From a virus, in IMG/VR virus record IMGVR_UViG_3300020536_000024, positions 1 to 35,607 of that record: a stretch of 35,607 bases of DNA, one strand, 5' to 3'. Below the pieces are notes generated by a model. It was not told the origin of the DNA, searched no databases, and saw nothing but the letters and a program-made list of their open reading frames with translations. The position numbers and the translations under genes are program-made. Positions 1,292 to 11,247 of this stretch are shown piece after piece (within the stretch, counting starts at the first letter, position 1; the number at the start of each line of letters is the position of its first letter).

Positions 1292-1554
1292 GGGTATCCT
1301 AAGTATAGTGGTATGGGTGTAATGTTTAGTTTTCTTCTCATTAGTTTACGTTCATACTCTGTAGTACCACCCCAGTATCCAAAGACAGCGTGCTTAAGTG
1401 AGTAATCTAAACACTGCTTTTTAACTTCACAGTTGTTACAGATTTTCTTAAGCATCTTAACTTCTCTATATGTAGCACTACCATCTGGTACAAAGAACTC
1501 CTCTGAATTTACACTCCTGCAATTAGGTGTGCCTCTCCATTCTGGGTACTCCAC
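1288..1554 (-). CDS. WhiB-family transcriptional regulator
   Basis: An 88-residue protein with the full WhiB signature: four cysteines C12, C39-x2-C42-x5-C48 that bind a [4Fe-4S] cluster, then the turn motif FGYWGG (58-63) and a basic tail (ERKLMRRKL). WhiB-like (Wbl) proteins act with sigma factors in Actinobacteria. Phage versions such as mycobacteriophage TM4 WhiBTM4 can interfere with host WhiB2 and superinfection; the role here is inferred. It uses a GTG start directly after the FmdB-like stop, and that gene's last codons (GGA GGA) serve as its Shine-Dalgarno. This gene is the best single indicator of an actinobacterial host. Confidence 0.93.
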   Translation of the reverse strand: MEYPEWRGTPNCRSVNSEEFFVPDGSATYREVKMLKKICNNCEVKKQCLDYSLKHAVFGYWGGTTEYERKLMRRKLNITPIPLYLGYP

Positions 1555-9081: not shown

Positions 9082-9501
9082 TTAATACCAACCATTGCTT
9101 CGCCAATGTGACCAAGCAACTGATGGTTTCTCGTATCTGTGCTGGATGTAAGCCAGCCCACGCTCAATCTGGAGCGGGGCTGGCGTTTGTGGGTCAAGGT
9201 TAAGTAACTGTGGGATACCGAAGGCTGAACTGTTTGGGTTGTCTGCTTTAGGATTCCAGGCTGATTCCTTTCCCCATAGTTTCATTAGTGCACGGTGTTC
9301 AGACAAGTTCCAGTCTGGGTACGCCATGCGCATGAACTGTTTTGCATATAACTTCAGAGCACGGGGAGTCCAATGGAACTCGCTCATCTCTGTAGGTTTT
9401 GGCTGTGTGTGTGGCTTGGCATGTACCACTGGCATGTGCCACGGTAGCATTGACAAGAAGGTTAGATACCATGCGGTAAACAGTGCGAATAGTTTTTTCA
9501 T
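9082..9501 (-). CDS. Secreted lytic-transglycosylase-like protein
   Basis: 139 residues. A signal peptide is clear: MKKLF then a hydrophobic core to about residue 26, with VHA-K as a likely signal-peptidase site near 28/29. The mature domain has WGKESAWNPKADNP...AFGIPQLL at about 76-100, with E79 as the probable catalytic Glu of the SLT/goose-lysozyme fold. It then has ERGLAYIQHRY and WSHWRSNGWY, as in actinobacterial transglycosylase-like proteins. It is encoded in the early operon, away from the lysis cassette and on the opposite strand, so it is unlikely to be the main endolysin. Wall remodelling, or exclusion of other phages, is inferred. Confidence 0.75.
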   Translation of the reverse strand: MKKLFALFTAWYLTFLSMLPWHMPVVHAKPHTQPKPTEMSEFHWTPRALKLYAKQFMRMAYPDWNLSEHRALMKLWGKESAWNPKADNPNSSAFGIPQLLNLDPQTPAPLQIERGLAYIQHRYEKPSVAWSHWRSNGWY

Positions 9502-9596
9502 CTAACGACCCATCTGTAGAGGAGATAGAAAACTGTAATGAGGAATGCCCAGGACTGTAATGGTGTGAGAGGGAGGATTGATATTTCATTCATCAT
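9498..9596 (-). CDS. Single-span membrane microprotein
   Basis: 32 residues starting at tandem ATG codons (9596, 9593) and ending as an ATGA overlap with the transglycosylase ATG. The core LQSWAFLITVFYLLYRWVV is a clear membrane span with a positively charged end. Its coupling to the secreted wall enzyme suggests a membrane partner or leader. Too short for family assignment. Confidence 0.5.
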   Translation of the reverse strand: MMNEISILPLTPLQSWAFLITVFYLLYRWVVR

Positions 9597-9660
9597 TATC
9601 CTCTGAGTTGCAGATATCGCATAAGGTTCCGCACTGACTGCAGCAAGCATCTTCATTCAT
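9586..9660 (-). CDS. Cys-rich microprotein
   Basis: 24 residues with CC..CG...C..C (five cysteines) and an acidic tail. The ATG at 9660 overlaps the upstream stop, and the stop overlaps the next start region. A zinc-knuckle is plausible. Support comes from gene overlap and repeated occurrence of similar Cys microproteins in this cluster. Confidence 0.45.
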   Translation of the reverse strand: MNEDACCSQCGTLCDICNSEDNDE

Positions 9661-9757
9661 CTCCCCACATCCTATCTGGTTCTTGGTAACCTTCATCTTC
9701 ATCTTCTATGTCTTTGTCTAGTGCTATGTCATCTTCAAGCGGTGGTTCGTAGCCCAT
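9653..9757 (-). CDS. Acidic microprotein
   Basis: 34 residues, strongly acidic (LEDDIALDKDIEDEDE), ending MWGDE. AAAGGAAG precedes the ATG at 9757, and the stop overlaps the next ATG. It starts within the last codons of the XRE gene (23-base overlap). Highly acidic small phage proteins are often inhibitors or DNA mimics; that is only a suggestion here. Confidence 0.5.
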   Translation of the reverse strand: MGYEPPLEDDIALDKDIEDEDEGYQEPDRMWGDE

Positions 9758-10022
9758 CTTTTCTTCCTTTCATTACATGCATTTGGTCTCCATACATACT
9801 GTGTCTGATAACTGCATCGATTGATATGCCGTATACCTCACACAATTTCAACAATCTTTTAACTGTTATAGGTCTATGGTTGCGTTCATAACTACCTAAT
9901 GCTGCGACAGTAAACTCACCATTGCTTACGCGTTCTACATCTCTAAGGGTGTAGCCAGCAACTAGTCTTACTATCTTAAGCGTTGTCATTATGTCTAAGT
10001 AATCAGGGTTTAAGTTACTCAC
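9735..10022 (-). CDS. XRE-family (BldD-like) HTH regulator
   Basis: 95 residues from GTG 10022, chosen because AGGGAG lies 6 bases upstream; the frame could extend to GTG 10052 but that lacks an RBS. The core GYTLRDVERVSNGEFTVAALGSYERNHRPITVKRLLKLCEVYGI is an HTH of the actinobacterial type where the recognition segment reads GSYERG.R..TV.RL..L...YG. It probably represses or activates early phage promoters; the inverted repeat at 11779-11805 is a candidate target, unproven. Confidence 0.8.
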   Translation of the reverse strand: MSNLNPDYLDIMTTLKIVRLVAGYTLRDVERVSNGEFTVAALGSYERNHRPITVKRLLKLCEVYGISIDAVIRHSMYGDQMHVMKGRKDGLRTTA

Positions 10023-10143
10023 ATTCTTCTCCCTTATGTAGTACTTGGTCACAACAGATTGTGCATAGACCAGTTATATTGCAGAATCTTTCTGCATATT
10101 GGTCGCAGTCAGCACACTGAGATGGCATGTATGGTGCGCTCAT
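10015..10143 (-). CDS. Zinc-finger-like microprotein
   Basis: 42 residues with CADC near residue 10, then C21, C27 and CTICC at about 27-31, and a terminal C. The ATG 10143 has GGAG 7 bases upstream and overlaps the preceding stop (ATGA). Its own stop overlaps the GTG of the XRE gene. Cys spacing suggests one or two zinc sites. No known family. Confidence 0.55.
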   Translation of the reverse strand: MSAPYMPSQCADCDQYAERFCNITGLCTICCDQVLHKGEECE

Positions 10144-10244
10144 AGTATTTCTCCACACTTATCGCAAGGTAATCCTGTTACCTCATCTAGTGCGTCATAC
10201 TTTGTACCCTTCCAGCAATGCATACATATGATAACGAACTTCAT
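10140..10244 (-). CDS. CxxC microprotein
   Basis: 34 residues: two knuckles ICMHCW and PCDKCGEIL separated by 16 residues, a minimal zinc ribbon. AGAGGAAG lies upstream of ATG 10244. ATGA overlap with the next gene. Confidence 0.55.
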   Translation of the reverse strand: MKFVIICMHCWKGTKYDALDEVTGLPCDKCGEIL

Positions 10245-10245
10245 T

Positions 10246-10377
10246 TTATTCTTCCTCTACATAAATTCTACCTGTTGCCATCATTTCTTCCAAGATATTG
10301 TTGGCTGCTTTGATGGATAGGATTGCAGCCTCCATTGATTCATTTAGTTGTGCGATTTCTTCTACGGTGTAACTCAT
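10246..10377 (-). CDS. Small helical protein
   Basis: 43 residues, acidic and helical (EEIAQLNESMEAAILSIKAANNILEEMM), coiled-coil-like. The ATG at 10377 overlaps the upstream stop (ATGA) with GAGAAAG as RBS, and the stop codon lies one base before the next ATG. Unknown function; may oligomerise. Confidence 0.5.
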   Translation of the reverse strand: MSYTVEEIAQLNESMEAAILSIKAANNILEEMMATGRIYVEEE

Positions 10378-10541
10378 TTGCTTTCTCCTATCTTGGTCCA
10401 TGCACATGGGGTGCAGTAGTTTCTGGGCGCTGTTCTATCTCTATCTACAAGAATGTCCATGCCACATGCATGGCATTCATCTTCTTTGTACTTGCTTTGC
10501 ACTGGGTAGTGGGCAAGGGTTATGAATTCTTTGTTTGCCAT
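10374..10541 (-). CDS. Small zinc-ribbon protein
   Basis: 55 residues. CHACGMDILVDRD and NYCTPCAW give a C-x2-C ... C-x2-C ribbon with a short DRDR loop. AAAGGAAG precedes ATG 10541. It overlaps the 3' end of the membrane protein gene by 22 bases. Resembles general phage Zn-ribbon fillers; no specific family. Confidence 0.6.
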   Translation of the reverse strand: MANKEFITLAHYPVQSKYKEDECHACGMDILVDRDRTAPRNYCTPCAWTKIGESK

Positions 10542-10756
10542 AGGTCTTCCTTTGCTATGTCTGGGTCATAGTAGAAGTTATTCTTTGGCATATAATAATC
10601 TACGCTGCGGGCTTTCTTTGCTATCCTGAGAGCACGGCGTAGTTCTAGGTTCTCTTTGGTAAGGATGGCGTTCTGTCTGATAGCCAGGGTTAGTACTACT
10701 ACAGATGTAATTAAAGCAATCATGATGGCTAACAGAGTCAATGAATCTAACAACAT
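10520..10756 (-). CDS. Membrane-anchored coiled-coil protein
   Basis: 78 residues. One N-terminal membrane span (about 4-26, LLAIMIALITSVVVLTLAI) is followed by a basic coiled-coil helix (KENLELRRALRIAKKAR) and a Tyr-rich tail. AAGGAG lies before ATG 10756. Topology resembles small spanin- or membrane-adaptor-like phage proteins, but the early-operon position argues against lysis. Confidence 0.6.
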   Translation of the reverse strand: MLLDSLTLLAIMIALITSVVVLTLAIRQNAILTKENLELRRALRIAKKARSVDYYMPKNNFYYDPDIAKEDLWQTKNS

Positions 10757-10758
10757 TT

Positions 10759-10839
10759 CTATCTCCTTCTATGTGAGCATTGGCTGATAGGAACTAGGCA
10801 GTCCCCACAATAAACTGTATTGTTTTCTGTATCTGACAT
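10759..10839 (-). CDS. Possible Cys/His microprotein
   Basis: 26 codons: CGDC...C-S-H then RRR. It ends 2 bases before the next ATG, and its last codons carry that gene's AAGGAG. The upstream AGG is a weak RBS. Plausible by analogy with neighbouring zinc microproteins, but short enough to arise by chance. Confidence 0.35.
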   Translation of the reverse strand: MSDTENNTVYCGDCLVPISQCSHRRR

Positions 10840-10884
10840 AGCGACCTACTTTCAGTTGTCTGAACTTATACGAATACCTTTGCA

Positions 10885-10928
10885 CTAAAAAAGTGCAGGT
10901 GGTGAGAGCCGAAGCCCCCACCACCTGC
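10885..10928 (-). terminator. Intrinsic terminator after the 10936-11247 gene
   Basis: On the minus strand a 10-bp perfect stem (10919-10928 with 10895-10904) encloses a loop with CTTCGG, followed by AC and six T (10887-10892). It lies 8 bases after the stop of the upstream gene, so that gene and its promoter form a separate or attenuated transcript from the rest of the early operon. Confidence 0.85.
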
Positions 10929-10935
10929 GGTTAGA

Positions 10936-11247
10936 TTAGACTAGCGATAACTTGGTTACTACCTGGTTTTCATACCACTTATCATTCTTTTCAGAGAATG
11001 TTGAAGTCATATACCCTTCAATGTTTACAGCGAATTCGGTTTCGCTGGAGTTGATTAGATTTTCACGAACCCATGCTTGGATTGCAGGGTCTGTGATGGT
11101 GATTTGACGGCTTGCGGTGAACTTGCTAGCCATATCGCCGTTGGGTGTATATTCTAAGCGGCGGTCTACTACAGTTGCTTTGATAACATTATTGTAATCT
11201 TTCACTGCCTTGACAATTGAACCGCTGAATGTGAATGTGTTTGACAT
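10936..11247 (-). CDS. Small beta-rich protein, possible OB-fold
   Basis: 103 residues, beta-rich with alternating polar/hydrophobic strands: TFTFSGSIVKAVKDYNNVIKATVVDRR, then KFTASRQITITDP, FAVNIEGYMTSTF and NQVVTKLSLV. Strand order and size are compatible with an OB-fold, such as a small ssDNA-binding protein, but no diagnostic motif or acidic tail is present. Good RBS (AAAAGGAAATAAC). It has its own terminator, suggesting high or early expression. Confidence 0.5.
   Translation of the reverse strand: MSNTFTFSGSIVKAVKDYNNVIKATVVDRRLEYTPNGDMASKFTASRQITITDPAIQAWVRENLINSSETEFAVNIEGYMTSTFSEKNDKWYENQVVTKLSLV

Follow-up and report, generated by a model that had tools for sequence, protein, structure and literature searches.

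Why would a virus pack ten tiny open reading frames (ORFs), almost end to end, into 1.3 kb of its genome, and what could they encode? The question is raised by the IMG/VR virus record IMGVR_UViG_3300020536_000024 (35.6 kb), taken here over its whole length and referred to as the window. Upon reading of both strands, ten ORFs of the same, minus strand were found to fill positions 10839..9498; in the 5′ to 3′ direction, a gene for a 103-residue protein is followed by a terminator hairpin, the ten micro-genes, and a transglycosylase gene. The first-pass annotation of this DNA had counted ten ORFs with at least seven below 60 codons, and the count holds, with eight below that length. The large terminase of the window shares ∼60% identity with its counterparts in LanE43-AprF5 and LanE43-AprE7 (phages F5 and E7), which were isolated on 'Ca. 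Planktophila' (PMC10202952), and the host is therefore presumed to belong to the Nanopelagicales, making the virus in all likelihood a tailed phage of freshwater Nanopelagicales Actinobacteriota. No relative at the DNA level was found among 50,697 phage records. As set out below, it is close to certain that the row consists of protein-coding genes that are exchanged as cassettes at gene junctions and, on balance, we lean toward reading it as a modular accessory array of Nanopelagicales phages for counter-defence or host takeover.

Evidence for coding came from ∼100 IMG/VR loci that encode relatives of the flanking genes; these were fetched, and the micro-ORFs were located in them by tblastn. 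Independent nearest pairs were pooled within each family to obtain omega-like ratios, under a transition bias of 3, together with a binomial p value. Codon conservation in relatives had been named beforehand as the observation on which the genes would stand or fall, and a significant bias toward synonymous change was found in nine of the ten window families (p 2.5e-4 to 1e-49). In gene order, the ratio was 0.30 for i26 (p 6.5e-5), 0.38 for h78 (p 1.6e-25), 0.44 for g55 (p 1.3e-10), 0.14 for f43 (p 9e-50), the most conserved of the micro-genes, 0.17 for e34 (p 2.5e-4), 0.29 for d42 (p 2.4e-13), 0.42 for a helix-turn-helix (HTH) protein, 0.22 for c34 (p 9.8e-19), and 0.30 for b24 (p 8.5e-6); for a31 it was 0.72 and not significant (p 0.18). 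Shifted frames of the same DNA gave ∼0.97 or more where computable, and the other families of the relatives and both flanking genes gave 0.13–0.49. Homologues of the micro-ORFs at 30%–66% identity were also present in more distant contigs.

Comparison with the relatives moved four starts downstream, shortening the products from 53 to 43 residues for f43 (start at 10377), 47 to 42 for d42 (10143), 38 to 24 for b24 (9660), and 52 to 31 for a31 (9593), and the HTH gene starts at the GTG at 10022. The corrected lengths are, in order, 26, 78, 55, 43, 34, 42, 95, 34, 24, and 31 residues. A Shine-Dalgarno motif precedes 80% of the called ATG starts, compared with 10% of the remaining ATGs and 8% of those on the antisense strand, an enrichment that is partly circular because the gene caller scores that motif. 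The default minimum of standard gene callers is 90 nt, and the earlier statement that most of these genes are too short for them applies to the two or three shortest but not to the rest.

The genes of the row are tightly joined. From i26 to d42 the junctions are, in order, a gap of 2 bases, overlaps of 22 and 4, a gap of 1, and an overlap of 4; from d42 to the transglycosylase gene they are overlaps of 8, 23, 8, 8, and 4. The first-pass annotation had described overlaps mostly of one or four bases. Over all relatives (n = 113 junction types) an overlap of 4 is indeed the commonest type (42), ahead of 8 (22) and 1 (13), but the window itself mixes 4, 8, 22, and 23 with gaps. Aspartate and glutamate are enriched in the last four residues of typical array proteins (0.34 versus 0.18), which would fit a ribosome-binding site for the next gene written in GAG and GAA codons. 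Since overlaps of 4, 8, or 1 bases and a Shine-Dalgarno motif within the final codons of the preceding gene are mostly kept, most combinations of genes stay translationally coupled.

Exchange of the genes is evident from 57 distinct relatives, compared over the region from h78 to the transglycosylase gene. Their arrays hold 32 small families in 43 different gene strings. The left end is fixed, with h78 (family F0; 10520..10756), g55 (F1; 10374..10541), and the acidic f43 (F2; 10246..10377) present in 57 of 57 arrays. At the right, the very acidic c34 (F3; 9653..9757) is near-constant (51/57) and a31 (9498..9593), joined to the transglycosylase gene, forms the usual border. The middle varies: e34 (F11; 10140..10244) occurs in 7 of the 57 arrays, d42 (F5; 10015..10143) in 28, b24 (F7; 9586..9660) in 21, and the HTH gene (F6; 9735..10022) in 26, nearly always directly before c34. 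The first gene, i26 (10759..10839), is also a variable member. Despite this turnover the order of families is nearly invariant: of the 72 pairs found together in two strings or more, 62 always keep the same order, against an average of 17 and at most 30 upon shuffling.

The locus L084 illustrates such an exchange. Its terminase is 98% identical to that of the window and the flanks of the row are 92%–96% identical, but it carries ∼357 additional bases precisely at the junction of f43 and e34, in which the gene caller finds families F4 and F10, and it lacks b24. A second variable spot, of ∼430 extra bases relative to the window, lies in the same locus directly downstream of the transglycosylase gene (L084:7405-7836). 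The C-terminal tail of f43 predicts the family that follows (mutual information 1.17 against a null maximum of 1.16; 0 of 2000 shuffles) better than the body of the protein does (17 of 2000 shuffles), which probably places the exchange point at the very end of the preceding gene, in its last codons. The junctions, listed and read by eye, share Shine-Dalgarno-like purines and the start/stop overlap and no common recombination site, so an integron-like cassette array was rejected. Some families are common to diverged phages: phage F5 has homologues of F9 (78% identity) and of the F17 nuclease (52%). A cassette for a 139-residue thermonuclease-like protein (PHROG nuclease, E 1.7e-18) was seen in arrays L043 and L055, and it is present in E7 and F5 as well.

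What the exchanged genes may be for is suggested by the equivalent row of the cultured phages. E7 and F5 carry, upstream of an SLT gene, a row with homologues of i26, the nuclease, and F9; they differ from the window in their other cassettes and, in E7, in the presence of ardA. The 116-residue ArdA of E7 (Pfam ArdA, E 9.7e-9) is encoded directly before the homologue of i26, a 24-residue gene adjoining ardA, whereas F5 has unrelated genes of 111 and 54 residues at the same spot and lacks ardA. The two phages were isolated on one and the same strain, and the paper describing E7 reports its ardA, the row of micro-genes being unmentioned in the main text (PMC10202952). When the ArdA of E7 was used as a query over IMG/VR, 14 loci were obtained, 11 of them within such rows, and several of these have cassettes in common; ten have a same-strand SLT gene downstream, and the eleventh has the same neighbours and ends at a contig border. 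The position of ardA, in the row of E7 and in 11 of 14 loci, and its replacement by unrelated genes in F5 link the row indirectly to counter-defence. On the reading that we prefer, the exchangeable micro-proteins would mostly be inhibitors with narrow targets in host defence or other host functions, and they would be kept or swapped as hosts change.

The closest systems of a known kind are the anti-defence clusters of mobile elements (acr/aca loci and anti-restriction-modification islands), which have been described as containing ardA, an HTH gene in a fixed place, and small genes in shuffled combinations (Pinilla-Redondo 2020, PMC7648647). The window row resembles them in its interchangeable small genes at one site, in an HTH gene at a fixed relative position, and in the ardA of homologous rows; as with aca genes, a small HTH protein is encoded alongside the variable genes (26/57 arrays). 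It differs in that no acr or aca family is recognised and function is predicted only, in that the HTH protein is of the BldD type and present in about half of the arrays of phages whose host order lacks CRISPR-Cas, and in that the cassettes are translationally coupled micro-genes in a near-fixed order.

Several observations weigh against counter-defence. None of the genes in the window row matched a known anti-defence or inhibitor family; the anti-defence option of the first-pass annotation has indirect support, from ardA at the related loci. A search of 40 close relatives gave no ardA, and gave no match as a control either. All evidence on ardA was drawn from a single branch of related phages, and the scan for it had the ArdA of E7 as its query. 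In their behaviour, the fixed members h78, g55, and f43 resemble core genes more than accessory ones. Because the Nanopelagicales lack CRISPR-Cas (PMC10202952), the defence that is targeted would have to be restriction or something unknown. Finally, small early genes of actinophages can serve other ends, such as toxicity or superinfection exclusion.

Among the alternatives, a host-takeover or regulatory module survives best, as a possible if rather unlikely explanation. Here the fixed zinc-finger, acidic, and membrane micro-proteins, together with the HTH protein, would act on host transcription, replication, or the membrane, the variable ones would tune the module to the strain, and counter-defence would play no part. 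The fixed trio under purifying selection in 57 of 57 arrays and the CxxC proteins speak for it. Such motifs occur in five of the ten window proteins, as the first-pass annotation had noted for several of them: twice each in g55, e34, d42, which is rich in cysteine, and b24, and once in i26. In g55, which has the pattern CX2C-X16-CX2C, the cysteines at positions 23, 26, 43, and 46 are all invariant, and an AlphaFold model of modest confidence (pLDDT 77) has a β hairpin (E18-22, E29-33) followed by a helix (H44-51), in a treble-clef-like arrangement. The motifs and this model suggest small zinc ribbons or treble clefs, and on the preferred reading, too, all five may be zinc-binding proteins that act through binding of protein or nucleic acid. 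The label "zinc-knuckle-like" does not apply in the strict sense, as the pattern CX2CX4HX4C was matched by 0 of 406 array proteins. Fold matches to g55 were weak: the top hit in Foldseek was YacG, an inhibitor of gyrase, at E 0.49, and in a second comparison, whose list did not include YacG, the best Z was 2.5 over 40 residues. A YacG-like gyrase inhibitor was accordingly set aside, as no more than a lead. For family F4, the structure consisted of one long helix and was uninformative.

The HTH protein likewise counts in favour of this module. In mycobacteriophages, expression was toxic for 23% of the 193 genes tested, ultra-small early genes included (PMC7474061). The HTH protein matches Pfam HTH_3 (2.9e-7), BldD in the Protein Data Bank entry 2ewt (1.5e-8), and the NCBIfam BldD model NF050110 (1.7e-10); the last match covers positions 11-73 of 162 and scores 40.9 bits against a cut-off of 250. 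By sequence, then, it is a BldD-type DNA-binding domain and nothing else: the N-terminal HTH domain of BldD, the Streptomyces developmental regulator, is matched, whereas its C-terminal c-di-GMP domain has no counterpart in the 95-residue phage protein. A scan of host genomes with the HTH profile, limited by the pattern used, returned only BldD-like proteins of the Frankia group (36%–48%). On the preferred reading as well, the protein may regulate its own row or host promoters, and to this one DNA-binding protein the earlier idea of a compact regulatory system can be upheld, though not beyond it. Against the module as a whole stand the absence of the HTH gene from about half of the arrays and the ardA of homologous rows and the strong turnover, which fit arms-race genes better.

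Slightly less credence is given to a mixed bag of small accessory genes with no common purpose, gathered at a spot of a compact operon that tolerates recombination. The families are certainly diverse (nuclease, HTH, membrane, and acidic proteins), and mosaic small genes are familiar in actinobacteriophage genomes (PMC7474061). The small early genes of those phages are, like the window genes, tiny, early, mosaic, and mostly without known families (Ko and Hatfull 2020, PMC7474061). Unlike them, the three array families tested (F4, F12, and the g55 family) had no relatives in the 50,697 phage records, and the genes of the Wildcat toxic-gene region lie 80–100 bp apart (PMC7474061) where those of the window overlap. 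Purifying selection on nearly every family tested, the near-fixed order, and the recurrent ardA argue against a purposeless collection, and restriction of the row to one phage group suggests selected functions tied to one host group.

A bolder extension of the counter-defence reading, which we consider doubtful, is that the row is a dedicated platform for cassette exchange, through which phages of lake Actinobacteria that have no CRISPR system pass new families of inhibitory micro-proteins among themselves, mostly against still unknown defences. Homologous recombination would then have its landing sites in the fixed end genes, each micro-gene would travel with the ribosome-binding site encoded in the tail of the preceding gene, and the overlapping junctions would let any cassette enter with translation unbroken.

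It is improbable that the row is an extended lysis cassette in which a31 and h78, as holin-like membrane proteins, work with the transglycosylase. The gene for a31 overlaps that of the transglycosylase by 4 bases, and the protein has one conserved hydrophobic segment and a basic C-terminus; h78, with an N-terminal hydrophobic segment, a charged stretch, and a conserved DPDxAKEDxW tail, is likewise a putative membrane protein. Lysis would explain a31 and perhaps h78 at most, however, leaving the cysteine-rich, acidic, and HTH genes unaccounted for; the block shares an operon with replication genes, and no holin family was matched. Chance frames in a conserved noncoding region, to which the small size of the ORFs and the unusually conserved synonymous sites of a31 might point, can be dismissed: frame-specific purifying selection in nine families, the diverged homologues, and the Shine-Dalgarno enrichment refute them for nine of the ten ORFs, and diverged homologues do so for a31.

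Those homologues of a31, encoded by distant relatives, are MFPMTPLESWLFIIG-type proteins that are open only in the a31 frame and share TPL(Q/E)SWxFxI. Among 52 distinct relatives, synonymous divergence in a31 is 5–6 times below that in the adjoining transglycosylase gene; at four-fold sites the values are 0.054 and 0.311, respectively, and the lowest 31-codon window of the latter is 0.257. A direct repeat, CATTACAGT, lies within a31 at 9532-9540 and 9554-9562. No stable RNA structure was detected over a31 (z +1.1). Dual coding with an ORF in the +1 frame (9299-9589), hinted at by an omega of 0.35 in the shifted frame compared with 0.72, was rejected: one close relative and every distant one interrupt that ORF, and in the part of the transglycosylase gene into which it extends, synonymous sites show no constraint. 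With RNA structure and dual coding unsupported, a signal at the level of DNA within 9498-9593 is the remaining, possible idea.

The array sits in the leftward, probably early, operon of the phage. From the preceding gene it is separated by an intrinsic terminator on the minus strand (10895..10928), with a 15-bp stem, a 4-base loop, and a U-run. In all distinct close relatives compared, a hairpin with the core GGGC(T/A)NNGG(C/A)TCTCAC immediately precedes the array, and the outer arms of its stem vary with pairing kept; the five distant relatives lack it. This conserved terminator sets the row apart from the preceding gene, with its own promoter and partial read-through both as candidate routes of expression. 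The leader between the terminator and the first micro-gene (10840..10894, minus strand) may hold the array promoter. It has no match in Rfam, pseudoknots drawn by hand were not upheld across relatives, and pieces of the leader recur as a motif no more often than expected by chance. In relatives, the leader measures 30–60 nt and falls into several recurring types, for example ACGGAC...GCGAGTTCA or GTATAAGTTCAGACAACTGAAAGTAGG, and in some relatives TATAAT is found ∼20 bases before the first gene.

At the right flank, the SLT-type transglycosylase (9082..9501, minus strand; PHROG transglycosylase, 1.5e-14) has an N-terminal hydrophobic segment and is closest to transglycosylases of actinobacteriophages, at <60% identity. 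The 103-residue protein at the left flank (10936..11247, minus strand; omega 0.13) had no PHROG match and, from an impression of its sequence, is possibly similar to single-stranded DNA-binding protein. Elsewhere, the window encodes a sigma factor (1942-2586; PHROG sigma-K factor, E 2.2e-15), which might direct transcription from promoters specific to the phage, and a WhiB-family protein (1345-1539, minus strand; E 4.4e-18). In E7 and F5, whiB directly precedes the transglycosylase gene, unlike in the window, and given this distant location WhiB was rejected as a member of the array.

The Nanopelagicales are among the most abundant freshwater bacteria, and their defences and the counter-measures of their phages are nearly unknown. 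Several array genes, at 24–31 residues, are at or below the size kept by many annotation pipelines. The row provides a route, based on position, to candidate counter-defence micro-proteins: 32 small families, most without names in databases, for which gene boundaries and conservation are now available, along with a link to ardA. As the host and the phages E7 and F5 are in culture, the idea is testable.

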